Positions 11,715 through 50,000 of a stretch of 51,309 nt of DNA are shown here, in pieces. The DNA is from a virus, in the IMG/VR virus record IMGVR_UViG_3300021356_000029, positions 1 through 51,309 of that record. One strand, given 5' to 3'. Below the pieces are notes generated by a model. That model saw only the letters and a list, made by a program, of their open reading frames with translations, ran no database searches and had not been told where the DNA came from. The first letter of the stretch is position 1; each line of letters starts with the position of its first letter. A program made the translations under genes and the position numbers.

Positions 11715-11719
11715 AAAAG

Positions 11720-11748
11720 TTGACAAACGCAAATTTATGAGTTATAAT
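11720..11748 (+). promoter_or_regulatory. Early sigma70-type promoter (P1)
   Basis: TTGACA at 11720-11725, 17-base spacer, TATAAT at 11743-11748: both boxes match consensus. It lies just after gene 46 and would transcribe the APS-kinase-like/dioxygenase/epimerase/glycosyltransferase operon. Confidence 0.88.
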
Positions 11749-11769
11749 AAAAGAATCTTACAGGTTTTT

Positions 11770-11904
11770 ATGATCGCATGCCTTTCAGGTATGGTCGAGG
11801 GTCATGATGACATGTGGGGTATTCGTAATGGTTTAAGGAATGCTCAAAAGTTTTGGGAGTATGTTGATGAAAATCTTGGTGATGGGACTTCCTGGTTCGG
11901 GTAA
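11770..11904 (+). CDS. 44-residue small protein overlapping the kinase gene
   Basis: An ATG at 11770, about 15 bases after the predicted transcript start, opens 44 codons ending at TAA 11902-11904. The peptide (MIACLSGMVEGHDDMWGIRN start, later QKFWEYVDENLGDG) has a balanced composition and aromatic-rich helix, unlike random frames nearby. It overlaps the kinase start at 11867 by 38 bases in another frame. ACAGG is a weak ribosome site five bases upstream. It occupies the whole leader that would otherwise be empty. I do not recognise a family. Confidence 0.45.
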   Translation: MIACLSGMVEGHDDMWGIRNGLRNAQKFWEYVDENLGDGTSWFG

Positions 11905-23390: not shown

Positions 23391-24074
23391 ATGAGTATAG
23401 TATCTGACAAATATAAATGTATTTTTATAAGAATACCAAAAACAGCAACAACATCGATAGAACATGCGTTTAATTTAAATGACCCAGGATCTGTACTTCC
23501 TAGTGATGGCGTTCCTCATGGTCATGATGGTTGGGAAGAAGTTAAGCGTTTGGCTGGAGATGAGCGCTGGGAATCGTACTTTAAATTTTGTGTTTTCCGC
23601 GATCCTCTTGATTGGTTGGTATCAGGTTTAGTTGACCAAGCATCTTTCTGGTGGGAATATGATAATTATTATAGAATGATGAAGGTTGCTCTTGATAGTT
23701 ACTTGATAGAACATCCAACTAAACCAAACAGCGTTGGACTCAGGGCGATGCAGACTATCATGGTTGATGGTATAGTTACCAAAGAAGATGTTGATGGGTT
23801 TATAAATCTCAGGAAATATTGGTATCTTCCTCGTAACCATATATTCCAAAGTGACTGGATACCTGATGACATTGATATGGTTATTGACTTTGCCGATATG
23901 AATGGTGGGTGGGAAAAGTTCAAGGAAAGAACTGGAGTTGATTTTGATATCCCTTGGCACAATAGATCAAAATATAATGATGGTGTGAAATATGAGTACA
24001 CCTATCCTGCTCTAGAATATGCTAATGAATATTTTAAAAAAGATATTGATTTTTATAAGGAATTGTCTAAGTAA
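23391..24074 (+). CDS. Sulfotransferase family protein
   Basis: A 227-residue PAPS-dependent sulfotransferase-like protein: the 5'-phosphosulfate loop IFIRIPKTATTSIE (about residues 11-24) and the 3'-phosphate strand FCVFRDPLDWLVSG at 67-79 are both intact. The family transfers sulfate to sugar or protein hydroxyls. It is inserted between genes 44 and 62, an accessory cargo site. An APS-kinase-like gene at 11.9 kb could supply PAPS. Targets might be a surface glycan or a modified base. Confidence 0.85.
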   Translation: MSIVSDKYKCIFIRIPKTATTSIEHAFNLNDPGSVLPSDGVPHGHDGWEEVKRLAGDERWESYFKFCVFRDPLDWLVSGLVDQASFWWEYDNYYRMMKVALDSYLIEHPTKPNSVGLRAMQTIMVDGIVTKEDVDGFINLRKYWYLPRNHIFQSDWIPDDIDMVIDFADMNGGWEKFKERTGVDFDIPWHNRSKYNDGVKYEYTYPALEYANEYFKKDIDFYKELSK

Positions 24075-25780: not shown

Positions 25781-26149
25781 ATGTCCAATTTTATGAAAGT
25801 GAAAGAATTTATGGATACGTTTGGTCAGGAAGTAAAGACAGACCCAGAGTATGCTGGCGATGATGTTGCTGTCTTGCGATATGAATTGATCAAAGAAGAA
25901 TTACAAGAACTGTATGATGCGTTTACTTACAAGGATATGCCAGAAATCGCTGATGCTTTAACAGACTTGTTGTATGTTGTTTATGGCGCAGGGCATTCTT
26001 TTGGTATTGACCTTGATGCTTGTTTTGATCATGTTCACGCTTCTAACATGAGTAAGTTGGGTGAAGATGGTAAGCCTATATATCGTGGCGACGGGAAGGT
26101 TTTGAAGGGTCCAAATTATTGGGAACCCGACATGAAGCAGTTCGTATAA
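25781..26149 (+). CDS. mazG: MazG-like NTP pyrophosphohydrolase
   Basis: A 122-residue all-alpha pyrophosphohydrolase: E39-E40-x-x-E43 and E55-x-x-D58 form the metal site, with YVVYGAGHSFGIDLDAC following. Phage MazG proteins hydrolyse nucleoside triphosphates or alarmones and are common in marine phages. GAGGAATTGAGT supplies the ribosome site for ATG 25781. Its stop overlaps the next ATG. Confidence 0.88.
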   Translation: MSNFMKVKEFMDTFGQEVKTDPEYAGDDVAVLRYELIKEELQELYDAFTYKDMPEIADALTDLLYVVYGAGHSFGIDLDACFDHVHASNMSKLGEDGKPIYRGDGKVLKGPNYWEPDMKQFV

Positions 26150-26838
26150 TGAAGATGTACATGGGCTTTTGGTGCCCAGATCATGAGAGTCAAGGCGTTA
26201 ATGACATTCGAGTAGAATGGGCATATAAATGGATGGACGCTATGGACCTCATCGAAAAGACTGGTCGTGGGACTAAGCGTGTAATACAAGCTGGCGGTAA
26301 TGTTGGTATATTCCCTGTTGGTTTATCGCAACATTTTGAGGAAGTGGTTACGTTTGAACCTGTACCAGATATATATAAATGCTTGTTGAAAAATATCGAG
26401 CCATACGAAAATATAAAATCATTCAACCATGGGTTGGGTGAAGATAAGTATTCCGCTAGAGTTGATTGGACTCAAAAGGGTAATTCTGGAGGAACGCAGA
26501 TAAAAGGTTCTGAGTCTGGCTCGTTGAGCGTTGTTAGGTTAGACGACTTCGAATATGATCAGGTTGATATGCTCTGGCTTGATATCGAGGGGTTTGAGTA
26601 TAAGGCGCTTCTCGGGGCAAAGGAATTAATAAGGAAACATTCTCCAATAATAATATTGGAAAACAAAGGACTTATTCCTGGATATCCATCAGATCGTGAT
26701 GGTTCTGATGATTTTAGGAGATGGGTTGAAAATACATTTGGGTATAAACATATCCTTCGTAATATGAGGGATGACTTTTTTGTAAAGGCAGAGGAATATG
26801 AAACTATCAAAAAATTTTACATTGGCAGAGTTCACTAA
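26149..26838 (+). CDS. FkbM-family methyltransferase (copy 2)
   Basis: A 229-residue SAM methyltransferase: VIQAGGNVGIFPVGL around 45-59, VVTFEPVPDIY, and the FkbM signature DMLWLDIEGFEYKAL. It is distinct from copy 1 at 21565 (different SAM loop and C-terminus). It overlaps the MazG stop by one base and the M15 peptidase gene by 41 bases. Probably modifies a sugar; the two copies in one replisome region suggest a shared modification pathway, which is inference. Confidence 0.82.
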   Translation: MKMYMGFWCPDHESQGVNDIRVEWAYKWMDAMDLIEKTGRGTKRVIQAGGNVGIFPVGLSQHFEEVVTFEPVPDIYKCLLKNIEPYENIKSFNHGLGEDKYSARVDWTQKGNSGGTQIKGSESGSLSVVRLDDFEYDQVDMLWLDIEGFEYKALLGAKELIRKHSPIIILENKGLIPGYPSDRDGSDDFRRWVENTFGYKHILRNMRDDFFVKAEEYETIKKFYIGRVH

Positions 26839-27262
26839 AAGCCAAACAGCTGAGCGCAAAGGTTTAGATAACACACCAACTGATGAGCATTTAGTTCGTG
26901 CGAAACTGTTGTTTGAAAATGTAGTACAGAAAGTTAGGGACAATTTTGGACCAACTGTTATAAATAGCGGTTATAGGGGAGCTGAATTGAACGCTGCAGT
27001 AGGCGGTAGTTCTAAGTCGCAGCACTGTAAAGGTCAGGCTGCAGATATTGAAGTTCCTGGAGTTGCTAATGCTGAAGTTGCTCAGTGGATTGTTGATAAC
27101 TGCGACTTTGATCAACTGATCCTTGAGTTCTATACTCCAGGCATTCCCGATAGCGGTTGGGTTCATGTATCGTATGTTGGACCTGAGGAAAACAGAAAAA
27201 GTATTCTGACCGCAAGTCGTGTGGACGGCAAGACAAAATATAGTGTTGGATTAAACGCATAA
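26798..27262 (+). CDS. Peptidase M15 family endolysin
   Basis: A 154-residue zinc peptidase of the M15A/VanY-like group. Zinc ligands are visible in SQHCKGQAADIEV (H76, D83) and GWVHVSY (H123), with E110 as likely catalytic base. Such proteins cut peptidoglycan cross-bridges and act as phage lysins. No signal peptide is present. It starts within the methyltransferase gene and is followed by two single-TM proteins and then the curli-like block, so this looks like the lysis region. Confidence 0.9.
   Translation: MKLSKNFTLAEFTKSQTAERKGLDNTPTDEHLVRAKLLFENVVQKVRDNFGPTVINSGYRGAELNAAVGGSSKSQHCKGQAADIEVPGVANAEVAQWIVDNCDFDQLILEFYTPGIPDSGWVHVSYVGPEENRKSILTASRVDGKTKYSVGLNA
26959..26966 (+). promoter_or_regulatory. 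Possible late promoter inside the M15 gene
   Basis: Exact TATAAATA within coding sequence, about 300 bases before the two TM genes and the curli-like block. No other promoter is visible upstream of that block, so this is the best candidate, but coding chance is not excluded. Confidence 0.4.
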
Positions 27263-27263
27263 T

Positions 27264-27542
27264 ATGGAAGCATTCTTAGAGTTATTAGATGCAGGATTCC
27301 CGATTGCTGCTGCGATGGCAGGTGGGTTCTTTGTATTTTTAACTTTACGATTTATTCTAGAGGGTGTGTTGAGTGATATCAAAACGCAACGTGGGTTTGT
27401 AAAGGCGTTAGATAATCGCATCAAAACTATGAATAATGAATTGATACGCATCGATCTTTTGATCACGCATGCGTTTGGCATTGAGCCAGACTTAGACAGG
27501 ATTTCACGTGCTGACGGTCAAAAGGATGCTAGGAAAGACTGA
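27264..27542 (+). CDS. Single-TM protein with coiled coil, holin candidate (copy 1)
   Basis: A 92-residue protein: one N-terminal membrane helix (GFPIAAAMAGGFFVFLTLRF), then a charged amphipathic helix (FVKALDNRIKTMNNELIRID). The next gene has the same plan, with GFPI before the membrane helix and a matching (L)DN...LIRI segment, so the pair is a tandem duplication. Position right after the lysin suggests holin or holin-regulator roles; alternatively they belong to the curli-like secretion block. Confidence 0.72.
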   Translation: MEAFLELLDAGFPIAAAMAGGFFVFLTLRFILEGVLSDIKTQRGFVKALDNRIKTMNNELIRIDLLITHAFGIEPDLDRISRADGQKDARKD

Positions 27543-27817
27543 TGGAATTAAATATTGTTGAGTTAGTCAACACATATGGATTCCCAATCATAGCATGTAT
27601 AGGACTCGGGTACTTTATTTACTATGTTTGGATGTGGGTTACTGAAGAAGTTGATCCAGTTATTGAAGAATCGCATATGACTTTGATACAGTTGATTGAC
27701 AGAGTTAGAATGTTAGATAACGATTTAATTAGAATCAAAACTAAGCTAGATATGATTCTACAACAACAGAAACAACAGGAGAGCAAAGATGAAGATAGTT
27801 CTGAAAGCATCCATTAG
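27542..27817 (+). CDS. Single-TM protein with coiled coil, holin candidate (copy 2)
   Basis: A 91-residue relative of the preceding protein: GFPIIACIGLGYFIYYVWMW membrane helix, then RVRMLDNDLIRIKTKLDMIL and a Gln-rich tail. It overlaps copy 1 by one base and the CsgF-like gene by 29 bases, so all are co-translated. A pair of related membrane proteins could form a holin/antiholin set. Confidence 0.7.
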   Translation: MELNIVELVNTYGFPIIACIGLGYFIYYVWMWVTEEVDPVIEESHMTLIQLIDRVRMLDNDLIRIKTKLDMILQQQKQQESKDEDSSESIH

Positions 27818-28286
27818 TTTTCTGTTTCTGAGTTCGTTAGCATTCGGTGACATTGTACATACGTTTAAGAATCCATCATTCAGTGGCGTTGGTACAGGTG
27901 CTCATTACTTGACTATCGAGAATCAAGAATCAAGTAGAAAGCAACAAATTAAAGATGCTCTTGAAGCAGCAGAAAAAGCTGCAGAAAGGGAAGCAGAAAA
28001 TACAACTCTGGCTAAGTTCATTAGAAACTTAGAAAGTAGAATTTATGCCCAGCTTTCTAAGCAGTTGGTTGACAATATGTTTAGTAACGAAGACGCTGTA
28101 ACATTTGGGTCATTCACGTTAGAAGGATCTATTGTAACTTATGAAGTATTGACCGCAGCAAGCGGTGAAGATTACATTCAGATGCGTATTGTAGATAACG
28201 AAGGAACGGAAACTGTAATAGAGATACCGATCGGGACAGGAAACTTTGGTACAACTGATACTGGAGATACCGATGCGGGCATTTAA
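27789..28286 (+). CDS. csgF: CsgF-like curli assembly protein
   Basis: A 165-residue secreted protein. Signal peptide of about 20 residues (LKASISFLFLSSLAFG), then the CsgF hallmark TFKNPSFSGVGTGAHYL at 25-41, which in CsgF inserts into the CsgG pore. A helical middle and a beta C-terminus (GSIVTYEVLT) complete it; E. coli CsgF is 138 residues. It caps the outer-membrane curli channel. It overlaps the downstream CsgG-like gene by 14 bases and is preceded by AGGAG. Confidence 0.85.
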   Translation: MKIVLKASISFLFLSSLAFGDIVHTFKNPSFSGVGTGAHYLTIENQESSRKQQIKDALEAAEKAAEREAENTTLAKFIRNLESRIYAQLSKQLVDNMFSNEDAVTFGSFTLEGSIVTYEVLTAASGEDYIQMRIVDNEGTETVIEIPIGTGNFGTTDTGDTDAGI

Positions 28287-29169
28287 GTTACTGCCGTTTT
28301 TGTTTTTGGTAGGTTGCGCACAGATACCACAGTGGTCGGATAAACCGCAGGACTGTTCGCAGAAAGTAAACGCAAGAGATTATATTTGCGTTGATCACCC
28401 AGAGGTGGTGGATTTACCAGCATACATTAATTTGTTGAATGTGCCACCAGCAAAGAGTAAGCCAATCGTAGCGGTTTATGGATTTGCTGATAAAACTGGG
28501 CAACGTAAGGCAAGGGATGGTATAGCAGATTTTAGTACGGCTGTCACACAAGGTGGCACCGAGATGTTAATTGATGCGCTCAAGACAGCAGGTGGCGGAA
28601 CGTGGTTCCGTGTTGTTGAGAGGCAGGGTATTGATAATCTAGTCAGAGAAAGGCAGATTATTCGCAGTACCAGAAAAGAATACGCTGATGAGAAATCACA
28701 AGGCGTTGGTCCACTTCTATTTGCTGGTATGATAATAGAGGGTGGAATTATTGGTTATGATACCAATATTTTGACAGGAGGTCGTGGAGCAAGAACCTTA
28801 GGGATAGGATTTAGTAGGAAATACAGAAAAGATGTAGTGACAGTCTCAATTAGAGCTGTATCAGTTTTGACTGGCGAAGTGTTATTAAACGTCCAGGCAA
28901 AGAAATCGATACTAAGCTATGGTTCTGGCGGTGATCTATTCAGATATTATGAAGAAGGAACGCAATTAGTTGAGTATGAGGATGGCGTGGGAAACAACGA
29001 ATCTGTAACATACGCAGTACGAACAGCGATCGAAGCTGCCGTGCTAGAACTAATATATCAGGGACATGACAGAAGTCTCTGGAATGTTGAGGATGGGCAT
29101 CGACACCCGCACCAAAGTGATGGGACAAACGATAAACATTCTCTAGGAGAAAGTAAAGAAGATGAATAG
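28273..29169 (+). CDS. csgG: CsgG-like curli secretion channel lipoprotein
   Basis: A 298-residue outer-membrane pore subunit: lipobox LVGC15, then the CsgG core with VVDLPAYINLLNVPPAKSKP, VAVYGFADKTGQRK, FRVVERQGIDNLVRERQIIR and GIIGYDTNILTGGRGAR. E. coli CsgG is 277 residues and forms a nonamer that exports curlin. Conservation of the lipobox and constriction region argues for a working pore. The ATG at 28273 gives the lipoprotein signal directly and has GGAGA upstream. Next comes a curlin-repeat gene overlapping by 8 bases. Confidence 0.93.
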   Translation: MRAFKLLPFLFLVGCAQIPQWSDKPQDCSQKVNARDYICVDHPEVVDLPAYINLLNVPPAKSKPIVAVYGFADKTGQRKARDGIADFSTAVTQGGTEMLIDALKTAGGGTWFRVVERQGIDNLVRERQIIRSTRKEYADEKSQGVGPLLFAGMIIEGGIIGYDTNILTGGRGARTLGIGFSRKYRKDVVTVSIRAVSVLTGEVLLNVQAKKSILSYGSGGDLFRYYEEGTQLVEYEDGVGNNESVTYAVRTAIEAAVLELIYQGHDRSLWNVEDGHRHPHQSDGTNDKHSLGESKEDE

Positions 29170-29890
29170 GTACTTACTAGGACTTGCAAGTTTAGCGCTT
29201 TCAAGTTTCGTGATAAGTGGAGCATCTGACGACAACGAAATCAACATTGAACAATCTGGTGACACGCTGTCGATTTATATCGACCAAGTTGGTTACGGTA
29301 ACAAGATTGGGCTTGACGACTTCTCAACATCATCAAGTGCTACACCAATCACTGGTTCATCGTTGACTTTTGATATTGACCAAATCGGTAACGAAAACTT
29401 ATTGTTTGGTGAATTGACTTCGGATAGCTCGACATACAATTTAATCTGGACTGGGGATAGTAACTCTTGGGACTGGAAAATTGGTGATGTAGGATCGTCA
29501 GATAGTACAACTATTGACGTGAGCATTACTGGCGACTCAAACACTATGGACTTTGATCAAGGTTCTGTGGCAAGTGCGGAAAGACTTGACTTAGATTTAA
29601 CTTTGGTTGGTTCAAGCAATGCGTTTGACGTTGACGTAGAAACTGATGATGTTACTTGGAACTTCGATATTTTGGGTAGTTCTAATGACATTAACACTCT
29701 ACAGAATGATGGATATTATCAATCGCTCACAGTTGAATTAGAGGGTGACAGTGCTGATATTGACATCAATCAAATCAGTGGTACTTGCCCAGAAGGAATT
29801 ACTAGCTGTAAAGGTATTGTAACTCTAGACGTGACTTCTGATAATGCTACTATCCAGATCAACCAGAAAGATACTGCTGGCGACAGCTAG
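29162..29890 (+). CDS. Curlin-like repeat protein (copy 1)
   Basis: A 242-residue secreted protein: signal peptide (RYLLGLASLALSSFVISG), then imperfect 20-22 residue repeats with the curlin pattern of N/Q ladder, such as NEINIEQSGDTLSIYIDQVG, and recurring turns GDSN, GSSN and GSSND with DFDQ or DINQ. This fits a beta-solenoid amyloid subunit such as CsgA/CsgB. Two Cys (TCPEGITSC) near the end could form a small loop. It follows the CsgG gene, whose product could export it. Repeats are degenerate, so a structural phage protein is an alternative. Confidence 0.78.
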   Translation: MNRYLLGLASLALSSFVISGASDDNEINIEQSGDTLSIYIDQVGYGNKIGLDDFSTSSSATPITGSSLTFDIDQIGNENLLFGELTSDSSTYNLIWTGDSNSWDWKIGDVGSSDSTTIDVSITGDSNTMDFDQGSVASAERLDLDLTLVGSSNAFDVDVETDDVTWNFDILGSSNDINTLQNDGYYQSLTVELEGDSADIDINQISGTCPEGITSCKGIVTLDVTSDNATIQINQKDTAGDS

Positions 29891-30980
29891 TTCTATATTT
29901 GCTATAGGTTCTGTTGCGGCAGATACTATTGGAGATATAGTTGAATCGAAAGGAATCGGTTCGCTGTTACGAGAAACGGATGTCATTGAGTCAGACGTAG
30001 GTGTGGCAATTGAATTGAACGATACTGCCCAAACAGCAAAGGGCAGGATGTTGATTAAATTTAAAGATGAGGCTGAGTTAAGCCTCATCGAACACACTAA
30101 GGTTTACATAGACAAAGTCTACTACGACCCAGATCCGAGTAAGTCCAAGATGGTCATGAAAATGGCACTTGGAACTGCTCGGTTCGCATCTGGGCGTTTG
30201 GGCATGGTTGATAAAAAGAATATTGACATAACTACTCCAACTGCGCAGATAGCAGTTCGGGGTACAGATTTTACAACTACGATCGACGAACTCGGCAGGT
30301 CTCTGGTCATACTTTTGCCTGATGAGTTTGGCGACCCAAGCGGAGAGATCGTAGTTTCCAACGAAGCAGGTTCGGTAACTCTAACCGAAGCATATGCTGC
30401 CACTATGGTATCGAGCGTAGCATCCCCACCAGTTCAAAAGGTAGTAATACAAAATATAACTCCTGCTCTCATCGACAATATGTTTATTGTCAACCCACCG
30501 AAAGAAGTTCGCGAAGCCATAGAAGAAACTCTACAGGATGAACGAAATGTCGATATGGGTACGCTTGATATTGACTACCTTCAATATGATGGACTTGATG
30601 GCACGCTAGAGGATTATATTGATGAGGGCGAGACGACAAGATTGGATTATGACTTTTTGGAATCTGACCTGTTAGTCGATTTGCTTGATGTCATTGACGA
30701 ATTGATTAGAACCATGGGAGATCTGGAGGATAGGCAGGCTGATAATGCCTCAGGCGATATAATCCTAAAAGGTGCGACATGGGGAAGAAATGACGACAGT
30801 CAGTACACTATATACAGGGAAGACGGTGGGATAGTTTTTTATAGAGATGTGAATGGGGTAATTAGTTTGAAGTTTGCGAACGGTGGCTCAATCAGAGTTG
30901 AGACCGAGGTGGACGGATATGGAGGCATAATTACCGCTGACGGTGGTGATGATATTGGGGTCTTCATAAAGCAAGACTAA
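29844..30980 (+). CDS. FecR-domain periplasmic protein
   Basis: A 378-residue protein with a signal peptide (RKILLATASSIFAIGSVAA) and a FecR-type beta domain (about residues 45-165: GVAIELNDTAQTAKGRMLIK, then TPTAQIAVRGTDFTT). A helical, acidic middle and a beta C-terminus (ITADGGDDIGVFIK) follow. FecR domains sense envelope or surface signals and commonly sit beside CHASE2 cyclases in bacteria, as here. It overlaps the curlin-like gene by 47 bases, with a weak ribosome site. Host-type regulatory genes are unusual for a phage. Confidence 0.85.
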   Translation: MLLSRSTRKILLATASSIFAIGSVAADTIGDIVESKGIGSLLRETDVIESDVGVAIELNDTAQTAKGRMLIKFKDEAELSLIEHTKVYIDKVYYDPDPSKSKMVMKMALGTARFASGRLGMVDKKNIDITTPTAQIAVRGTDFTTTIDELGRSLVILLPDEFGDPSGEIVVSNEAGSVTLTEAYAATMVSSVASPPVQKVVIQNITPALIDNMFIVNPPKEVREAIEETLQDERNVDMGTLDIDYLQYDGLDGTLEDYIDEGETTRLDYDFLESDLLVDLLDVIDELIRTMGDLEDRQADNASGDIILKGATWGRNDDSQYTIYREDGGIVFYRDVNGVISLKFANGGSIRVETEVDGYGGIITADGGDDIGVFIKQD

Positions 30981-30982
30981 AT

Positions 30983-31711
30983 ATGGCTATGGATGATATA
31001 GAAGAAATCATACTTTACTTTTTCAGCGCATGTCTTTTGGCGTTTTACATAACGGCATCAGTGAAAGCCAACGCAGATAATGAAATTACTATTGATCAAT
31101 CGGGAGCAAACTTCAATCTCAATGTAGAACAGATCGGGTATTCTAATGTCGTCAAGAAGTGGAACTGGGAAGGCATCGATGGGGTTGATAATACTGTTGA
31201 TATAAGGCAGAAAAAAGACTCTGGTAGTTCTAGCAATAAGAACGTTCTTGAGATTAGGAGAGTGTGGGGTGATGGGAATAATTTAGCACTCGGTCAAGGT
31301 TGGTTGGTGGATAGTAGTGGCAATTTTACGGAAGAAACTGGTGGAGAGTATGGCGGTACATTCGCACATATCAATGTGACTGGCGACAATAATAATATCT
31401 CCATGCAACAAACAACTAATCAAAACAACACTGGGCACGAATACTGGTTACATGTTGAAGGTGATGATAATGACATCTACACCAAACAACAAGGTAATGG
31501 GCAGTATATAAACTTGGACATATTTAATGATGGCAACGATGTGAGTATTATTCAGAAGAATAGCGGGAGTCATGATGCGACTGTTAAATTATATGGATCT
31601 GAGCCCACATCGATATCAGTTCTTCAAAATAGTTGGTCTGATCAATCATATAGCATAACTCAAACTTGCGTTACGGTTGGCGGTTGTTCCGTATCGGTGA
31701 CACAAGAATGA
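30983..31711 (+). CDS. Curlin-like repeat protein (copy 2)
   Basis: Also 242 residues. A hydrophobic N-terminus (IILYFFSACLLAFYITASV) acts as signal peptide or anchor, then DNEITIDQSGANFNLNVEQI, parallel to copy 1's NEINIEQSG block. Curlin-type turns and Q ladders follow: GDNNNISMQQ, GDDNDIYTKQQGNG and GNDVSIIQKN. A C-terminal Cys pair (TCVTVGGC) mirrors copy 1. A major/minor subunit or nucleator pair is likely. It overlaps the cyclase start (ATGA). Confidence 0.78.
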   Translation: MAMDDIEEIILYFFSACLLAFYITASVKANADNEITIDQSGANFNLNVEQIGYSNVVKKWNWEGIDGVDNTVDIRQKKDSGSSSNKNVLEIRRVWGDGNNLALGQGWLVDSSGNFTEETGGEYGGTFAHINVTGDNNNISMQQTTNQNNTGHEYWLHVEGDDNDIYTKQQGNGQYINLDIFNDGNDVSIIQKNSGSHDATVKLYGSEPTSISVLQNSWSDQSYSITQTCVTVGGCSVSVTQE

Positions 31712-33531
31712 CTAAGTGGTGGTCAGTTCTTCCTGCGATTTTTTTACTTGCTTTTTTAAAGGTATCGCAGTATGATATAGTAAAATCAGTAGAATATGTG
31801 TACTACGATTTTTTACAGCGCAATCATGACATCGTTGAGGTCGACGATATCGTGCTTGTTAACATTGATGAAAGAGCTATAGAAAAGGAGGGGCAATACC
31901 CTTGGCCAAGACAGACAGTCGCAAAGTATATAAACCAAGCACCAAACAATTCTCTACTTGTGTCAACAATGATATGGTCAGAGAAAGACCGATTTGCGGG
32001 GGATCGGGAACTATCAATCTCACTAAGCCAGAAGGCAGTAATCCTAGCAAGCGCTCCCACACGCCAAACTACTACGGATGATCTGGGAATCTATGCCAAT
32101 GTATCCACGTTTGGCAAGCCCAAAGAAACATTAATAGACTACACAGGTTTACTCGCACCTATCCCCGAACTGGCTCAATATTCCATGGGGGTGGGTGCGG
32201 TATCCGCTGAGGTCGACCAACCAACTGGAGTCCTACGAAGAATGCCACTTATGGTCGGCATCAATGGACAGCCATACCCATCTCTGGGTCTTGATGCGGT
32301 GAGAGTATTTCTGGGAGAACCGTCTTACACGGTCAAGTACAATGAGTTAGGTGTTGAGTGGATAAGGTTAGGGAGGCAAGCACCGCTGATCACCCAACCC
32401 ACCTCCGAGTTACCAATAACATTCTGGAATAAATTTAAATCGCAGTCAATATTGGATCCGATACCCGAAGGAAAGGTTGTGATACTTGGGGTGACAGCTG
32501 AGGGTGTTTCTAATCCAGTACCAACCCCAGTGGGTGCAATGTATCCCCACGAAGTTCAAGGTCAGCAAATTCAGACCTTGATCTCAGGCGTTCAAATACT
32601 TCGACCCGACTGGTCTGTAATAGCCGAGCTTGCGATGATTCTGGTAGTGTCTCTAGGAATTCTTCTAGCGGTCTACAAACTTCCCACAATTGCTGCGGTG
32701 ATAGTTTCGCTTGGCGTTCTAGGCGCTTCGCCGATATTTGGGTTCTACGTTTGGAGGGAATATTACTTTTTCTTAGACGTGGTTTGGGCATCGCTTGCGG
32801 GTCTCCTTGTATTCGCGCAAAGTTCATTCAACAAGTATTATAGTACATACAAGCTGAAAGAGCAAATTAAAAAACAGTTCGGGACTTATTTATCTCCCGA
32901 CATGGTAGCAGCACTTCAGAAAGATCCTTCGCTACTCAGGCTCGGTGGCGAAAGGAAAGAAATGACGTTCCTATTTATGGATATCTGTGGATTCACTCCG
33001 ATCTCAGAACACTATAAAAATAATAATGATCCCGAAGGATTGGTAAATTTGATCAATAATTATTTAAATGAGATGACGAAAATAATTCTAAACAACGGTG
33101 GCACAATAGATAAATACATGGGCGATTGTATTATGGCATTCTGGAATGCGCCACTAGCCTGCGATAACCACGCAGAAATGGCTGTTAAGTCAGCGATAGA
33201 AATAGAGGCAAAAACAAATGAAATCAAAAGAATATACTCTGACGCAGGGTTGCCTGATATTAATGTCGGCACTGGTATTAATTCCGGCACTGCTATTGTC
33301 GGTAACATGGGTTCTGATGCCAGATTCGATTACTCCGTCATCGGAGATTCCGTCAACCTCGCAGCAAGATTAGAAGCTACTGCTGCTCGAGGTGAGTACA
33401 AGGAATACAAAACTATCATCTCATCATTCACTCGAGACTTACTGCCATCGGACTATATGTGCGAGGAGATCGGTCAAATCAAGGTTAAAGGCAAGGAAGA
33501 GCTTATAACCATATATTCCCCAAAGTTATAA
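31708..33531 (+). CDS. CHASE2-domain class III adenylate/guanylate cyclase
   Basis: A 607-residue membrane receptor cyclase. One TM near the start, a periplasmic CHASE2 sensor (about 30-310, ERAIEKEGQYPWPRQ), three TM helices (about 310-375), then a class III cyclase: FLFMDICGF with the first metal Asp, TIDKYMGDCIMAFWNAP with the second, and SVIGDSVNLAARLEATA. All key residues are present, so it is probably active and makes cAMP or cGMP. CHASE2 cyclases paired with FecR proteins are typical of bacterial chromosomes, so a host-derived cassette is likely. It ends the curli-like operon. Confidence 0.92.
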   Translation: MTKWWSVLPAIFLLAFLKVSQYDIVKSVEYVYYDFLQRNHDIVEVDDIVLVNIDERAIEKEGQYPWPRQTVAKYINQAPNNSLLVSTMIWSEKDRFAGDRELSISLSQKAVILASAPTRQTTTDDLGIYANVSTFGKPKETLIDYTGLLAPIPELAQYSMGVGAVSAEVDQPTGVLRRMPLMVGINGQPYPSLGLDAVRVFLGEPSYTVKYNELGVEWIRLGRQAPLITQPTSELPITFWNKFKSQSILDPIPEGKVVILGVTAEGVSNPVPTPVGAMYPHEVQGQQIQTLISGVQILRPDWSVIAELAMILVVSLGILLAVYKLPTIAAVIVSLGVLGASPIFGFYVWREYYFFLDVVWASLAGLLVFAQSSFNKYYSTYKLKEQIKKQFGTYLSPDMVAALQKDPSLLRLGGERKEMTFLFMDICGFTPISEHYKNNNDPEGLVNLINNYLNEMTKIILNNGGTIDKYMGDCIMAFWNAPLACDNHAEMAVKSAIEIEAKTNEIKRIYSDAGLPDINVGTGINSGTAIVGNMGSDARFDYSVIGDSVNLAARLEATAARGEYKEYKTIISSFTRDLLPSDYMCEEIGQIKVKGKEELITIYSPKL

Positions 33532-35557: not shown

Positions 35558-35995
35558 ATGATTATTGAGATTGGTAAAGAGTATGCTGTATCTCCTCGAT
35601 ACAAGAAGTCATTTGAGGAAAGCGAATATTGGGTTAATGGTAAAGGACAGCGCATCACAATCACCACGTTGTGGCGTGGCGGTACAATTAATATCACTCC
35701 GCAGAATGATGATGAATCTGCATGGTTAGGGCAAGCTGTTGCTCAAAAAGATGATGAGATATTTGAACCATATTCGTTTGAAGAATATGAATATCAGTCA
35801 GCTTGGGATGGCGTATCGGTAGATGTATATTTCTATGGGTTTGATGGAAATACTGATGATGAGTTATCTGAAGAGTGCCAAAGGTTACAAGATGGATATG
35901 ATGGGGAAGGCACTATGTTCCTTGAAGAAGAAGGATTTGATGTTGATGATTCTGAAGTGTTTATGTATGGCGAACTTGAAGTAGAAGAAGTTTAA
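35558..35995 (+). CDS. Acidic hypothetical protein before gene 43
   Basis: A 145-residue, very acidic protein with many Tyr, Glu and Asp (EEYEYQSAWDGVSVDVYFYG, C-terminal YGELEVEEV). Its acidity suggests a DNA mimic or protein-binding role, but this is inference. It overlaps gene 43A by one base (TAATG). Confidence 0.65.
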   Translation: MIIEIGKEYAVSPRYKKSFEESEYWVNGKGQRITITTLWRGGTINITPQNDDESAWLGQAVAQKDDEIFEPYSFEEYEYQSAWDGVSVDVYFYGFDGNTDDELSEECQRLQDGYDGEGTMFLEEEGFDVDDSEVFMYGELEVEEV

Positions 35996-37443
35996 TGAAG
36001 TTTTATACTCACACCCACGTGCGTGGCAATACAGTCTGCGTTCGTGGGTACAAGAACGGAAAGCGATTCGTAGAAAAGGTTGAGTACAATCCAACCTTAT
36101 ATGTCCCATCTCGTAAGACTACCGATTATCAAACACTGACTGGTGAATATGTTGAACCCATGCCGATGGGCGATATTAAAGAAGCCAGTAATTTCGCTAG
36201 GAAATATGAGGGCGTTGACAACTTTAAAATCTATGGCTCAACTAAATGGGCGTATGTCTATCTAAATGAAAAGTATGGCAACGATTATGATGTTGATCAA
36301 ATCAAGGTAGCAAATATTGATATTGAGGTTGCTTCTGAGGATGGATTCCCCAACCCCGAACTGGCTAATCAGCCTGTCACTGCTATCTGTATTTCCTACA
36401 CCCACAATGGTAAGAAAAGATATTATGTAATCGGCAATGGTAAGTATGAGCGCAGTCGCGACGATGTGCATTATATTGACGCTAAAGACGAGATGCGTTT
36501 ACTTGCTGTATTCTTATCCTTCTGGGAGAAACTAGACCCTGATATTATCACTGGCTGGAACATCGAGGGGTTTGATATTCCTTATCTAGTTAATCGTATC
36601 TCTAAGTTACTTGGCGAAAAAGAAGTAAGGCGACTATCGCCATTCAGGTGGATTAAGAAAAGAGAACTGACCAAGTTCAACCGCATCGAGACTTTGTATG
36701 AGTTGGTTGGTATCGCGACACTTGATTATCTACACCTGTACAAAAAGTTTACATATTCTCAGCAGGAGTCGTATCGCCTTGATCATATTGCGTTCGTCGA
36801 GCTGGGTGAGCGAAAGTTAGATTACTCTGAGATGGAAAATCTACACCAGCTGTATAAACTTGACTATCAGAAGTTTATCGACTATAATATAAAAGACGTT
36901 GAGCTTGTCGATAAAATTGAAGACAAGATGAAACTGATTGAAATGGCTTTGGCGATTGCGTATGATGCTAAGGTTAATTACAACGATACGTTTACTCAGG
37001 TTACGATGTGGGATGTGCTTATACATAATTATCTCATGAGTAAGAATATCGTGATACCACCGAAAGAAGAAACGATAAAGAACTCTGCTTTTGCTGGGGC
37101 ATACGTGAAGGAACCGCAAGTGGGAATGCATGATTGGGTTATGAGTTTTGACCTTAATTCTCTGTATCCTCACTTGATTATGCAATATAACATCTCTCCC
37201 GAAACTATGGTTGAAGATGACTTTATGGTAGATGTCGATGTTGATGATATCATTGACAGGAAAGTTGAAACTCACCCGCATCATGCTATGGCTGCGAGTG
37301 GTCGGTACTTCCGAAAAGACAAGCAAGGATTTCTACCTGAGATGATGGAAAGGATGTACACTGAACGTAAAAGCTACAAGAAGAAAATGCTTGAAGCTGA
37401 AGCGGAACTTGAATTGATAAACAAAAGGCTGGCACAATTATGA
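35995..37443 (+). CDS. 43A: DNA polymerase gp43, N-terminal half (split gene)
   Basis: A 482-residue piece of the family B polymerase: N-terminal domain, 3'-5' exonuclease with NIDIEVASEDG (Exo I), GWNIEGFDIPYL (Exo II) and YNIKDVELVDK (Exo III), then palm motif A SFDLNSLYPH with catalytic D386. It stops after KSYKKKMLEAEAELELINKR, inside the fingers coiled coil, before motif B. The rest of the enzyme is encoded by the gene at 37712. The two halves total 849 residues, close to intact marine gp43, so little sequence is lost. The stop overlaps the next ATG (ATGA). Confidence 0.94.
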   Translation: MKFYTHTHVRGNTVCVRGYKNGKRFVEKVEYNPTLYVPSRKTTDYQTLTGEYVEPMPMGDIKEASNFARKYEGVDNFKIYGSTKWAYVYLNEKYGNDYDVDQIKVANIDIEVASEDGFPNPELANQPVTAICISYTHNGKKRYYVIGNGKYERSRDDVHYIDAKDEMRLLAVFLSFWEKLDPDIITGWNIEGFDIPYLVNRISKLLGEKEVRRLSPFRWIKKRELTKFNRIETLYELVGIATLDYLHLYKKFTYSQQESYRLDHIAFVELGERKLDYSEMENLHQLYKLDYQKFIDYNIKDVELVDKIEDKMKLIEMALAIAYDAKVNYNDTFTQVTMWDVLIHNYLMSKNIVIPPKEETIKNSAFAGAYVKEPQVGMHDWVMSFDLNSLYPHLIMQYNISPETMVEDDFMVDVDVDDIIDRKVETHPHHAMAASGRYFRKDKQGFLPEMMERMYTERKSYKKKMLEAEAELELINKRLAQL

Positions 37444-37712
37444 AGAAAGGTGACGTAGTATCTCTGGTTACATTGACTGGGGAGTATGTTGGTAAGTATG
37501 AAGACGAGAGTCCTAACGGTGTTGTTTTGAAAGATCCTCGTTGGGTTATTCATGGCGAACAAGGTATGGGGTTTGCTCATGGTCTTTGTTCAACTGGTAG
37601 ACACAACCCAGATAAAGTTGAGTTTGCCAGAGGCGGTATGGTTTTTGTTACCGAAAGTAACGAAGATATTGAAAAAGCGTATCGTCAAGCTGTGAGTGGA
37701 TTGATCGTTTAA
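37440..37712 (+). CDS. 90-residue ORF inserted between the polymerase halves
   Basis: A small beta-rich protein (MKKGDVVSLVTLTGEYVGKY, then VVLKDPRWVIHGEQGMGF) with the look of an SH3/Sm-like domain and a helical tail. It has no homing-endonuclease motif (no GIY-YIG, HNH or LAGLIDADG). It overlaps both polymerase pieces (ATGA and TAATG), so all three are translated in sequence. It could be a subunit or clamp-like factor of the split polymerase, or a passenger at the break. Confidence 0.75.
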   Translation: MKKGDVVSLVTLTGEYVGKYEDESPNGVVLKDPRWVIHGEQGMGFAHGLCSTGRHNPDKVEFARGGMVFVTESNEDIEKAYRQAVSGLIV

Positions 37713-38815
37713 TGATTGAAAATATGAGCAAAGCTGACCTTCTCGAACGCAAGAAACAGGTCATCAAAGATATTAGTAAGTACAAGAATCTACAGCTTGC
37801 TAAGAAAGTTCAGCTAAACTCAGCCTATGGTGCGGTTGGTAACAAATACTTCCGATTCTTCGATGTGAGGAAAGCGGAATCAATCACACTATCTGGTCAG
37901 TTGTCTATTCGTTGGATTGAGAGGAGAGTTAATGAATACCTTAATAAGTTACTTCAAACATCCGAAGCTGATTATGTTATTGCATCGGATACGGATTCTA
38001 TCTATGTCAATTTCGATGCACTTGTACGCAAGTGCTTTGAAGAGGGAAGTGACCCTGTCAAAATCGTCAATTTCCTGGACAAAGTTGCAACTGAGAAGTT
38101 GGAACCTTTTATTGATAAAAGTTATGAGGAACTGGCACGAATAACAAACTCGTATGACCAAAAGATGTTTATGAAACGAGAGGTTATTGCGGATAAAGCT
38201 ATCTGGACTGCTAAGAAAAGATACATGATGAATGTGTATGATAACGAAGGAGTCCGATACGCCAAGCCAAAACTCAAGATGATGGGTATCGAAACTGTAA
38301 AATCATCGACACCGCAATCGTGTCGCGATGCCCTTGAGGAAGCAATTAATATTATTATGAACAAGGATGAGCAATCTGCGCAACAATACATATCTGACTT
38401 CAGGAAGAAGTTTGAGCAGTTGCCCTTTGAAGACGTTGCCTTTCCTCGATCTGTATCAGACTTCAGCAAATATGATGATGGTAAGAAAGACTTGACTATA
38501 CCGAAAAGTACACCGATTCATGTTCGGGGTGGTCTAGTTTACAATCATCTGATCAAAAAGCACGGTCTTGAGAAAAAGTATGAATTGGTAAAAGACGGTG
38601 AGAAGCTAAAGTTCTGTTACCTAAATAGTCCTAATCCTGCTCAACATAATGTGATCAGCGTAATGAATACGTTGCCTAGAGAGTTTGACTTGAGCAGTTA
38701 TATAGACTACGAAACGCAGTTTAACAAAGCGTTTCTCGACCCACTAAAGATAATCCTAGAGTCGGTTGGTTGGAGTGATGAAAAGAAATCCAGCCTTGAA
38801 GACTTTTTTGGATAG
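37712..38815 (+). CDS. 43B: DNA polymerase gp43, C-terminal half (split gene)
   Basis: A 367-residue piece starting in the fingers helix (MIENMSKADLLERKKQVIKD): motif B KKVQLNSAYGAVGN at 31-44, motif C SDTDSIYV with D93/D95, KKRYMM and the thumb. The last residues KKSSLEDFFG are the expected gp45-binding tail, as in other T4-type polymerases. Together with 43A all catalytic residues are present, so a functional heterodimer is likely. Confidence 0.94.
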   Translation: MIENMSKADLLERKKQVIKDISKYKNLQLAKKVQLNSAYGAVGNKYFRFFDVRKAESITLSGQLSIRWIERRVNEYLNKLLQTSEADYVIASDTDSIYVNFDALVRKCFEEGSDPVKIVNFLDKVATEKLEPFIDKSYEELARITNSYDQKMFMKREVIADKAIWTAKKRYMMNVYDNEGVRYAKPKLKMMGIETVKSSTPQSCRDALEEAINIIMNKDEQSAQQYISDFRKKFEQLPFEDVAFPRSVSDFSKYDDGKKDLTIPKSTPIHVRGGLVYNHLIKKHGLEKKYELVKDGEKLKFCYLNSPNPAQHNVISVMNTLPREFDLSSYIDYETQFNKAFLDPLKIILESVGWSDEKKSSLEDFFG

Positions 38816-46155: not shown

Positions 46156-46175
46156 GGGGGCATTGAGTTGCCCCC
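46156..46175 (+). terminator. G5/C5 hairpin after micro-ORF
   Basis: GGGGGC / GCCCCC, 6 bp all G-C with an 8-base loop, ten bases after the 27-codon ORF. No U-tract. It parallels the hairpin at 15943 after the other micro-ORF and may define an RNA 3' end or processing point. Confidence 0.5.
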
Positions 46176-46213
46176 ATTTAGGTAAGTGTACGCAAAACCC
46201 TAAAAGGACAATA

Positions 46214-48577
46214 ATGAAAAAGATAGTATTTACATTTGGGCGAATGAACCCACCTACGATTGGTCACCAGAAACTAGTCGATAAAATAATTTCTACTGCT
46301 AAGAAAGAAAAGGCTGATGCTAAAGTCTTTCTCTCTCACAGTCAAAATAATAAGAAAGACCCACTCAACTATGCCGAGAAGATTCGTTTTGCTCGCAAAG
46401 CGTTTGGTAGAGTTATCCAACAATCAAACTCTAAGACTATTATCCAGATCTTAAAAGAATTAGAAAAGGGCGGTTACACTGATATTGTATTGGTGGTTGG
46501 TTCTGACCGTGTCGGTGAGTTTAGTGGTCTACTTAATAAGTATAACGGAAAGGATTACAACTTTGACTCGATCGATGTGGTATCAGCTGGTGCTAGAGAC
46601 CCAGACGCTGTTGGCGTTGAGGGTATGTCAGCATCAAAGTTAAGAGCATTGGCGATTCAAGGTGATTTTGATACATTTAAGACTGGCTTGCCTAAAAAGC
46701 TAAACGATCGTGACGCGAAAGATGCTTACGACACTATCCGTGCGGTAATCAAAGAAGATTTAGATGAGCAGAAGAAACCGCTATCTATATCTCAGCGTAA
46801 GGCTATCGGTCGTAGAATGAAGCGCCTTGCTCCCAAGTTACAGCGTATTAAGAAAATGAAAGCCAAAAAGATGGCTGATGCTAAGACTATTCAGAAGCGA
46901 GCGCAAAAGGCAGCAATTAAACTGATTAGAAAGAAAGTTGCTGGTCAGAAAGGTCAGAATTATGCTAATCTAAGTCCTGGCGATAAAATGAATGTCGACA
47001 GACTAGTGGCTAAGAAATCAGCAATTATTCAAAAATTAGCTAAGAAACTAATTCCTGCTACACGCAAGAAGGAGATAGCGAGATTGAAATCGTTAAGAGG
47101 TGGTCCAAAGAACGAGAATTATGATGCGTTGTTTGAGTCAGTAATTCTTGAACGCCAAGACCCAGATATTAAAGATAGAGAAGGCAGTCAACCTGCGAAG
47201 TACCATAGCGGTCTGGCGAAGTCAACTAAAACTAAGCGTGATGCGCAGTTCCAAAAAGGCGCAGAGAAAGATTCGGGCGATCCAAGCGCATATCCTGATA
47301 AGCATGTGGGCGATACTGGCGCTAAGACACGTACTTCCAAGCATACTAAAAAGTATCGTCAAATGTTTGGCGAGAAAGAAGTTGACCAAGTAAAGGCTAG
47401 AATCGAAAGAGAAAAGGCTTCCGATAAGAAAAAGCATGATCGCATGATGGATCGTGCTAGAACTGCCGATACTAGAGAAAAGAATCAACAAACTGAAGAG
47501 TTTGAGATTACAGAAAATGCTAAGGCAGCACTTCAAAAGAAAGCTGATAAAACTGGTATCCCATACGGCATTCTGAAGAAAGTATATGACCGAGGTATGG
47601 CAGCATGGCGTACTGGTCATCGCCCAGGAGCTACTCAACAGCAGTGGGCTTTTGCTCGTGTTAATAGTTTTGCTACAAAAGGTAAGGGGACTTGGGGTAA
47701 GGCAGACGCTGACTTGGCTGCCAAGGTTCGAGGCGCTAAGAAAGAATCAATAGAAGAAGCTAAGAATGCTGCTCAGCAAGCTGCCATTGCTATATCTAAA
47801 AAGGAAAGAGCAAAAGAAAAAATGGATGACGAGATGGATCCTCGTGATCATGTTGTCAGTAAAGACGGCAAGTTCCAAGTAGTGAACAAAGACGGTGAAG
47901 TTGTAAAGACTTTTGATAACCGCAAAGACGCTAATGAGTTTGCTATCAGTAATCATGACAACCTGATGGAATCGAAGATGAGCGATGACATCGACAAACT
48001 CAAGTCTAAAACTGTACAGAAGAAGCGTTATGCAGCTGCAGCTAAAATCTTGAAGGATATTATTAAGAGAAAGAAAGCTGAAGCCAAGAAGAAAGGTGTT
48101 CCTGTTCGTCACGGTAATGAATACTATGCTGGCGTTGTTGCTAAGCAATACAGCGTAAATCCTAGAGTTTTGCGTACTATGGCTGAGCAGATGATAGTTG
48201 AAGATGATCGCGCAGGAGACTTCGGTTCTGATAAGCTACGCAAAAAGTATCAGAAAGATACTCCTTGCGAGTGTGCTGATATGTATGATGACCTAGTAGT
48301 TGAGGCTGCAGAGTATCAAGGAAGAAAGGTTGACCTAAATAATCCGTTCAGATTACCAACTGGATCAAAGAAGAAGTTTGGTGTTTATGTTAAGAACGAC
48401 AAAGGTAACGTGGTAAAGGTTACTTTTGGTGATCCTAATATGGAGATTAAGCGTGACGATCCAGAAAGAAGAAAGAATTTCAGAGCAAGACATAATTGCG
48501 ATGATAAAAAAGATAAAACCAAAGCAGGTTACTGGTCGTGCTACCAATGGCGAGCCAGTGCCAAAGTTGACAATTAA
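46214..48577 (+). CDS. Multidomain virion-type protein with N-terminal nucleotidyltransferase
   Basis: A 787-residue Lys-rich protein. Residues 1-190 are an HxGH-type nucleotidyltransferase (FGRMNPPTIGHQKLV, with GVEGMSASKLRALA near 150). Next is a basic helical region, then a conserved small domain (GIPYGILKKVYDRGMAAWRT, GKGTWGKADADLAAKVRG), a further helical part, and a C-terminal domain with DPNMEIKRDDPERRKNFRAR. Between domains lie repeated gp21-like sites (VILE, EITE, SIEE, MIVE, VVE). This suggests a head protein processed by gp21, with the transferase as one product. Start 46214 has AAAAGGA upstream. Confidence 0.78.
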   Translation: MKKIVFTFGRMNPPTIGHQKLVDKIISTAKKEKADAKVFLSHSQNNKKDPLNYAEKIRFARKAFGRVIQQSNSKTIIQILKELEKGGYTDIVLVVGSDRVGEFSGLLNKYNGKDYNFDSIDVVSAGARDPDAVGVEGMSASKLRALAIQGDFDTFKTGLPKKLNDRDAKDAYDTIRAVIKEDLDEQKKPLSISQRKAIGRRMKRLAPKLQRIKKMKAKKMADAKTIQKRAQKAAIKLIRKKVAGQKGQNYANLSPGDKMNVDRLVAKKSAIIQKLAKKLIPATRKKEIARLKSLRGGPKNENYDALFESVILERQDPDIKDREGSQPAKYHSGLAKSTKTKRDAQFQKGAEKDSGDPSAYPDKHVGDTGAKTRTSKHTKKYRQMFGEKEVDQVKARIEREKASDKKKHDRMMDRARTADTREKNQQTEEFEITENAKAALQKKADKTGIPYGILKKVYDRGMAAWRTGHRPGATQQQWAFARVNSFATKGKGTWGKADADLAAKVRGAKKESIEEAKNAAQQAAIAISKKERAKEKMDDEMDPRDHVVSKDGKFQVVNKDGEVVKTFDNRKDANEFAISNHDNLMESKMSDDIDKLKSKTVQKKRYAAAAKILKDIIKRKKAEAKKKGVPVRHGNEYYAGVVAKQYSVNPRVLRTMAEQMIVEDDRAGDFGSDKLRKKYQKDTPCECADMYDDLVVEAAEYQGRKVDLNNPFRLPTGSKKKFGVYVKNDKGNVVKVTFGDPNMEIKRDDPERRKNFRARHNCDDKKDKTKAGYWSCYQWRASAKVDN

Positions 48578-48587
48578 GGAAACTAAA

Positions 48588-50000
48588 ATGAAATCATTAA
48601 ATTCTGTCATCCGTGAGATGTACAATAAAGTAGAAGAATCGGTTGACCTTGAAGAGTCAACTAAAGCGTATGCTGCTTCATTAGAGAAAATGGCTAACGA
48701 TAAGAAGCTGAAGAATATCTCTAAGAAAGATCGCGATACACTTTCTAAATTAGCTGACTTGATGAAGAACGCTAATGAAGAAGTTGATTTTGATGAAGAC
48801 GCATTAAATGAAGCTATCGAAGCTATTGTTGAAGAAGATGAATTACTTGAAGATTACTTCAAAGTTCAGTACTTCGGCAAAGACGGTAAGCCAGAAGCTG
48901 GTAAAGAATCAAACTTCAAAGACGAAAAGTCTGCTAAGAGATATCTAGCTAGAGCGCAAAAAGCTGTCAAGGTTGGCGAATATAAGCTGAGCAAAGAAAA
49001 GGGTAAGCTAGAATCAGTTGAGAAACTTGACGAAAATGTAGGCAAGAAAGTCTATGAAAAGAAAGCTGGTCAAAGCGTAGTAAAAGTGTTCAAGTATTCT
49101 GACGGTAAAATGTTTGCGTTCTTTGACTCAAAAGGCTATGGCGAAACTAATATGCAAATCAAGAAGTTTGACAAAAATGTTCTTAATAAGGCTGTTAAGC
49201 ACTTCGACGATAATAAAGGTTTGATTGGTACCAGTATGGATTCTATCTATGAGTCTGCTAATTATTTCGGTCATAGCAAAAATCATGGGATTACCGACTC
49301 ACTACTTGCTGCTGTAAATAGAGTTGTTACTGGTGAAGATGATACTGTAGAGCCAGAAGTTGTTGACCAAAACGAAATCATCGAACAAGGCGCTGAAGAT
49401 GTATGCGAAGCGTTGGTTACTGGCGTACAAGGTAAAGACGGCAAGAAGTACTCTATTGAGTTACAGAAAAGTGGTCGTAAAGTAATGGTACGCACCAAGA
49501 ATCAATTCGGTGACATTGATACCATCGATCTGAAGAAAGCTGCCAAAATATTTGAACAAGATGTTCTAGACAAGCTGATTGAAGACAACACTAATGATAA
49601 GTCTGACGATGGCGAAGGTCTTGACAAGGTTCAACCAAAAGCTGTGAAGAAGAAGTTTAAGGATCGTAAAGATAAAGACATCGATAATGACGGTGATGTT
49701 GACGATTCTGACAAGTTCCTTCATAAGAAGCGTAAGGCTATTTCTAAGGCTATTGAGAAGGAAGAAACTGAAGAGCCTGAAGAAAAAGAAGATAAGAAAG
49801 ATAAAAAGAAAGGCGCTGAGCAGGTTGACACTGAACCTAAATTACAAGAAGAAATGACTCCTGAGCAAGAGAAGAAGCGTGAAGAAATCGTGATGAAGCT
49901 CAAGGAAAAGGAAGATGACTTTAAGAAAAAATATGGCGATCGTGCGAAAGAAGTGATGTATGCGACTGCCACGAAATTGGCTATGAAAAATACTAAATAA
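48588..50000 (+). CDS. Lys/Glu-rich virion-type protein with EF-hand-like loop
   Basis: A 470-residue charged protein. It starts MKSLNSVIREMYNKVEES, again a short peptide with gp21-like sites soon after. A beta domain lies around 200-250 (VVKVFKYSDGKMFAFFDSKG). Near 365 is KDKDIDNDGDVDDSDKF, an EF-hand/dockerin-like calcium loop. The C-terminus (MTPEQEKKREEIVMKLKEKE, then YGDRAKEVMYATATKLAMK) is a domain I have seen at the end of several marine T4-like structural proteins. Probably a prohead-core or internal head protein. RBS AAGGA precedes ATG 48588. Confidence 0.72.
   Translation: MKSLNSVIREMYNKVEESVDLEESTKAYAASLEKMANDKKLKNISKKDRDTLSKLADLMKNANEEVDFDEDALNEAIEAIVEEDELLEDYFKVQYFGKDGKPEAGKESNFKDEKSAKRYLARAQKAVKVGEYKLSKEKGKLESVEKLDENVGKKVYEKKAGQSVVKVFKYSDGKMFAFFDSKGYGETNMQIKKFDKNVLNKAVKHFDDNKGLIGTSMDSIYESANYFGHSKNHGITDSLLAAVNRVVTGEDDTVEPEVVDQNEIIEQGAEDVCEALVTGVQGKDGKKYSIELQKSGRKVMVRTKNQFGDIDTIDLKKAAKIFEQDVLDKLIEDNTNDKSDDGEGLDKVQPKAVKKKFKDRKDKDIDNDGDVDDSDKFLHKKRKAISKAIEKEETEEPEEKEDKKDKKKGAEQVDTEPKLQEEMTPEQEKKREEIVMKLKEKEDDFKKKYGDRAKEVMYATATKLAMKNTK

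Follow-up and report, generated by a model that had tools for sequence, protein, structure and literature searches.

Genomic Context and Gene Content

The window analysed here is the whole of the 51,309-bp virus record IMGVR_UViG_3300021356_000029 and is, judged from its gene content, a fragment of a T4-like marine phage. It encodes T4-like structural proteins (head scaffold, major head protein, and tail tube) together with a DNA helicase, a late sigma factor, SbcC/SbcD-type nuclease subunits, UvsX, a DnaB-like helicase, RegA, and a DNA polymerase, the N-terminal half of which is closest to those of cyanomyophages (~50% identity). This polymerase is distributed over two ORFs within the region 35995-38815, its N-terminal half at 35995-37443 and its C-terminal half at 37712-38815. 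The two are separated by a 90-aa ORF, and families for such halves are contained in PHROGs. A large cytidyltransferase-related protein (46163-50000) overlaps a second large ORF without known function. No tRNA was found in the window, nor any Rfam match to structured RNAs at gathering cut-offs.

A curli-like block occupies the middle of the window (Table 1). The six genes from csgF to the cyclase lie on a single strand, their ends overlapping or almost touching. The original prediction had placed six ORFs at ~27789-33531 and described them as a complete, phage-borne curli-like type VIII secretion system (T8SS) that includes its own subunits and two signalling proteins. The six are found there, and five of the six named proteins (all except curlin2) are identified by Pfam matches over the cut-off, which supports the overall description. 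The limits of the block were drawn too narrowly, as two genes of the unit lying directly upstream (27264-27817) were left out. The term "complete" holds only in the sense that the pore, CsgF, and the subunits are all present, as CsgE was not found. The csgG ORF opens with a TTG codon at 28246, but the ATG at 28273 agrees better with the lipobox; for the cyclase, whose ORF opens with TTG at 31666, ATG 31708 is the probable start. Near the block, products resembling, by eye, an FkbM-type methyltransferase (26119-26838) and a sulfotransferase (23391-24074) are encoded.

Table 1. Features of the curli unit and of the region directly upstream of it.
Feature	Position	Strand	Evidence and remarks
T4-type late-promoter core TATAAATA	26959..26966	+	305 bp upstream of TM1, within the endolysin gene
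M15 peptidase endolysin	26798..27262	+	PF08291 1.1e-21; phrog_894 (endolysin) 1.3e-45; neighbour, not a constant part of the unit
TM1, 92-aa one-helix membrane protein, first gene of the unit	27264..27542	+	phrog_18771 8.6e-28; hydropathy; in relatives' units
TM2, 91-aa one-helix membrane protein, paralogue of TM1	27542..27817	+	phrog_18771 6.8e-30; hydropathy; in relatives' units
CsgF homologue with signal peptide	27789..28286	+	PF10614 7.6e-16
CsgG lipoprotein pore	28273..29169	+	PF03783 2.5e-52; solved E. coli CsgG 2.7e-43
curlin1, curlin-repeat secreted protein, constant subunit	29162..29890	+	PF07012 5.2e-5; repeats; beta-rich model, pLDDT 83.5
FecR-domain secreted protein	29844..30980	+	PF04773 9.7e-8; phrog_37870 7.8e-64
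curlin2, second curlin-like protein, faster evolving	30983..31711	+	profile family shared with curlin1; repeats; beta-rich model, pLDDT 83.8
CHASE2 and class III adenylate cyclase, membrane helices	31708..33531	+	PF05226 3.6e-30; Guanylate_cyc PF00211 4.1e-19; catalytic residues

Pore Proteins and Curlin Subunits

Residues 50-274 of the window CsgG align with the solved E. coli CsgG, and a lipobox (LVGC) is visible by eye. Signal peptides were likewise recognised by eye in CsgF, both curlins, and the FecR protein. A single-sequence search of CsgF against solved structures returned no match. The features by which a T8SS is recognised, namely an outer-membrane lipoprotein pore (CsgG), an accessory protein (CsgF), and curlin-repeat subunits, are therefore all encoded in the window. 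A profile search for CsgE, in which the E. coli control was detected, gave no match over the cut-off in the window and 20 related records, in agreement with the absence of a CsgE homologue noted earlier. CsgE is reported to be dispensable (PMC7029224), and the pelagiphage module has been termed a T8SS although it lacks CsgE (PMC9599517). The missing CsgE gate is what would be expected if the infected cell took up iron compounds or larger nutrients through an ungated CsgG pore, as proposed in both of these studies. Such an uptake channel, however, leaves the conserved curlins and CsgF unexplained and would be of little use late in infection, and it is regarded as highly improbable.

The original prediction also recognised two 242-residue curlin-repeat proteins, and this assignment is borne out for both. 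Only curlin1 exceeds the Pfam cut-off for Curlin_rpt; curlin2 has no Pfam curlin match, and the two proteins share a single profile family. QxGxxN repeats are enriched in both families, with 1.91 per protein in the curlin1 family (0.12 in shuffled sequence) and 1.43 in the curlin2 family (0.17 in shuffled sequence). The secretion signals expected of such proteins can be discerned by eye in both. Curlin2 is predicted to be all-beta downstream of its signal helix, and AlphaFold2 yields confident, beta-rich models of both proteins. The best Foldseek matches are mostly beta-helical proteins, all weak and none significant, and those of curlin2 include the CsgA and FapC fibrils, again below significance. 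Structure prediction, which had been suggested as a check, thus delivered the beta-rich folds but no significant match to known amyloids; a solenoid fold appears likely from these models. Matches of curlin1 to plant LRR kinases in the PDB cover one short repeat-like stretch only and were treated as chance. As the second curlin is missing in ~7 loci of the second viral scan described below, curlin1 is considered the constant subunit.

FecR Protein and CHASE2 Cyclase

The enzyme encoded last in the unit combines a CHASE2 sensor with a class III cyclase domain, as do CyaD1-type genes of Sinorhizobium and other Alphaproteobacteria. The motifs FMDICGFT, GTIDKYMGD, and GDSVNLAAR, aligned to CyaB, show that the class III residues are intact: the metal-binding Asp pair, the substrate Lys, and the transition-state Asn and Arg. 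The protein is hence a predicted adenylate cyclase with its catalytic residues kept. Removal of CHASE2 renders a Sinorhizobium cyclase constitutive (PMC5498481). Of 30 alphaproteobacterial CHASE2 genes, 4 have a FecR homologue nearby, a count made on flanks of only 1.5 kb. On account of this co-location and of the Sinorhizobium result, the phage pair resembles, by analogy, an imported periplasm-to-cAMP sensor. The phage records searched yielded no cAMP receptor; candidate matches belonged to a bacterial MAG.

An Eight-Gene Unit

Viral contigs were scanned starting from CsgG, with profiles built from the window proteins, and the best 80 of 560 relatives were kept. Among these, the order TM1-TM2-csgF-csgG-curlin-FecR-curlin-cyclase is found wherever the contig is long enough, and TM genes precede csgF in all 79 records that reach that place, one of them, a truncated contig, showing the second TM gene only. 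A second viral scan, started from TM1, added 80 further loci, in which the TM pair still accompanies the csg genes, although the block is at times inverted or TM1 and TM2 lie apart. The module is carried there by contigs of up to 338 kb (L257, 259 kb; L219, 285 kb; L255, 338 kb). In L219 and L255, the csg block stands on the strand opposite to TM1/TM2. Three loci (L180, L181, and L182) display a TM1-TM2 pair without csg genes on the available stretch, and several contigs stop too soon for a verdict. The neighbours of the L180 pair (11289-11860) include a porin-like secreted protein and a glutamine synthetase-like ORF. The gene upstream of TM1 is RegA, an endolysin, or another gene, varying by lineage, and a constant lysis cassette was rejected.

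Strong TM matches in 50,697 phage records are confined to curli-carrying phages, and among 385 alphaproteobacterial genomes TM2 occurs in only one MAG, which holds phage contigs. Window profiles detected neither the TM pair nor FecR or the cyclase in 69 bacterial loci from a CsgG scan of genomes and 5 alphaproteobacterial loci. This limited sample of bacterial csg loci does not contradict the alphaproteobacterial origin argued in PMC9599517. Ten MAG contigs (L085 to L091 and L093 to L095), labelled Sphingobacteriales, Rhodobacteraceae, Synechococcus, Flavobacteriales, Saprospirales, Pelagibacter, and others, also carry the phage module. Apparently, phage contigs were binned here with bacterial genomes, and such misbinned contigs are a trap for claims of bacterial origin. 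Bacterial curli operons share CsgG, CsgF, and curlin-repeat subunits with the phage block, which differs from them by the absence of CsgE and the presence of the TM pair, FecR, and the CHASE2 cyclase.

A histidine kinase, sometimes two, has been reported always upstream of the csg genes in podophages (PMC9599517). In the phages analysed here, this place holds one-helix proteins of 91-98 aa. They are too short to be histidine kinases and have no ATPase domain over the cut-off, and the TM2 His is not conserved in phages HTVC008M and Melnitz. HATPase_c was not found over the cut-off in 20 phage records (the window and 19 related), which gave one weak hit, whereas it was detected in all 14 control genomes. 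We infer that the published "histidine kinase" probably corresponds to these small TM proteins and that the label may have been misassigned. Holins of the BhlA type (PF10960) and the T4 type (PF11031) were also considered as identities for TM1/TM2, and neither family matched. The distribution of the pair suggests that the two small membrane proteins are an overlooked part of the unit.

Late-Promoter Motif and Selection

The window contains 9 copies of the T4-type late-promoter core (3.6 expected), all of them on the coding strand and among them one 27 bp before the scaffold gene (2079) and one 49 bp before the major head gene (3222). In 48 of 105 dereplicated loci, this motif is found within 100 bp upstream of TM1, as opposed to 108 of 2319 other genes (Fisher p ~5e-32, the related loci not being fully independent). 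In relatives it mostly lies within 80 bp of TM1, but about half of the loci have no motif near TM1, and the copy in the window is more distant. As the motif stands before TM1 and almost never before csgF, csgG, FecR, or the cyclase, a late operon appears to begin with TM1. The unit is thus probably expressed late in infection and as a whole, a statement about a motif rather than a mapped transcription start. No link to a late promoter was found in the text of the published accounts of the pelagiphage module cited here.

This timing bears on superinfection exclusion, in which fibres on the infected cell would block the receptors of competing phages. The idea was put forward in PMC9599517, and a fibre coat is physically plausible; exclusion is nevertheless required early, whereas the motif indicates late expression, and this role is considered improbable.

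The genes of the unit are under purifying selection. Among close relatives, using unsaturated dS only, dN/dS is ~0.05-0.14 for the pore, the TM pair, curlin1, FecR, and the cyclase. Curlin1 (0.05-0.12) matches the low value of the pore, so the subunits appear to be retained along with it. Curlin2 diverges faster, with dN ~0.57 versus 0.12-0.23 for curlin1 in three comparisons.

Proposed Roles: Lysis Pore or Fibre Export

The main alternative is a role in lysis and egress. CsgG/CsgF, possibly together with holin-like TM1/TM2, would open the envelope, the curlins gating or plugging the pore, a reading that builds on the gated pore proposed in the Melnitz study (PMC9004378). The late motif at TM1 fits such a role. 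In 16 of 101 loci, an endolysin from one of two unrelated families (M15 or GH24) is encoded no more than 3 kb upstream of TM1; these make up 16 of the 17 such genes seen there, although this adjacency is confined to some lineages. TM2 relatives are weakly similar to the holin family phrog_4898 in 12 of 18 cases (best 1.1e-4), and no T4-type holin was found in 21 records; against this stands the lack of a BhlA match for TM1/TM2. Where distant relatives have genes between TM1 and TM2, these vary, and none is recognised as a lysis gene; a pore alone needs no conserved curlins, CsgF, FecR, or cyclase. An envelope-opening function is held to be unlikely, though a serious competitor.

Early exclusion and uptake are disfavoured by the late timing and by the retention of the subunits, which speak rather for fibres exported as infection ends. 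The preferred reading, to which a probability of about 0.45 is given, is that of an eight-gene, virus-specific late type VIII system that exports fibres before lysis and serves aggregation. The genes from TM1 to the CHASE2 adenylate cyclase would be transcribed as a single late unit, with CsgG and CsgF building an outer-membrane channel. Guided by their signal peptides, curlin1 and the variable, sometimes absent curlin2 would pass the inner membrane; after exit via CsgG, they would assemble into amyloid-like fibres at the surface of the infected cell just ahead of lysis. In dilute water, these fibres might tie together debris, released virions, and neighbouring cells, so that a new host would be found sooner. 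The FecR protein and CHASE2 would read the state of the periplasm, which the cyclase would report to the host cytoplasm as cAMP, and TM1 and TM2 may act as inner-membrane partners dedicated to the module.

Fibre export agrees with the constant viral gene order, the CsgG match, the curlin repeats and beta-rich models, the late motif, and the retention of the subunits; its sensor side agrees with the conserved catalytic residues, the FecR genes near CHASE2 genes, and the Sinorhizobium result. Against it count the lack of clumping in Melnitz infections (PMC9004378), the failure to find CsgE or, in phage records, a cAMP receptor, the absence of a significant amyloid match in Foldseek, and promoter evidence that consists of a motif. 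The functions first suggested for the block, all of them published guesses or close to these, fare unequally: a role near lysis or egress is strengthened, and early superinfection exclusion is weakened by the late motif.

Known Relatives and Implications

Ocean phages with such a block have been reported before. In pelagimyophages, csgF and csgG were described by Zaragoza-Solas et al. 2020 (PMC7029224), who suggested sibling capture. Wittmers et al. 2022 (PMC9599517) reported csgF-csgG-csgA/B-FecR-csgA/B-cyclase in pelagiphages of two families, podo- and myophages, and also described the oceanic abundance of the module and a likely origin from Alphaproteobacteria. Buchholz et al. 2022 (PMC9004378) contributed the lysis-pore proposal and the Melnitz infections. 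The window follows the pelagiphage pattern, csgF-csgG-csgA/B-FecR, often followed by csgA/B and a cyclase, but has two small membrane proteins in place of the upstream histidine kinase. HTVC008M (KC465899, 7562-13807) presents the same csgF-csgG-curlin-FecR-curlin-cyclase order, and Melnitz (MZ577098, 50731-56876) does so with gene-for-gene annotation; both also have two small TM-family genes before csgF. The window proteins share 53% and 47% identity with those of HTVC008M and Melnitz, respectively, for CsgG, and 42% and 31% for the cyclase. The initial view that the set exceeds earlier reports therefore does not stand, as these phages and PMC9599517 already show it. The search for the same gene order succeeded in many independent viral contigs and two kinds of isolate, which excludes an assembly chimera. 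A 1499-bp record labelled Salmonella phage (OR851715.1) contains a CsgG match of 40% identity and is perhaps host DNA.

New here are the eight-gene unit, the late motif, the purifying selection with intact cyclase residues, and the module on contigs of up to 338 kb. It is tentatively proposed, at rather less than even odds, that the unit is a distinct late viral machine and not simply a borrowed curli operon with regulators. In it, a small inner-membrane pair, not found in the sampled bacteria, would work with CsgG/CsgF and the curlins in export or in envelope opening at lysis, in phages ranging from T4-like isolates to those on 338-kb contigs. This addresses the question, on which several guesses have been published, of why abundant ocean phages bear curli genes that their hosts lack. 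With control of the late type, strongly retained subunits, and a pair of membrane proteins dedicated to the module, attention shifts to the final phase of infection, and the genes for experiments are identified; with the isolates HTVC008M and Melnitz, the timing can be measured directly.
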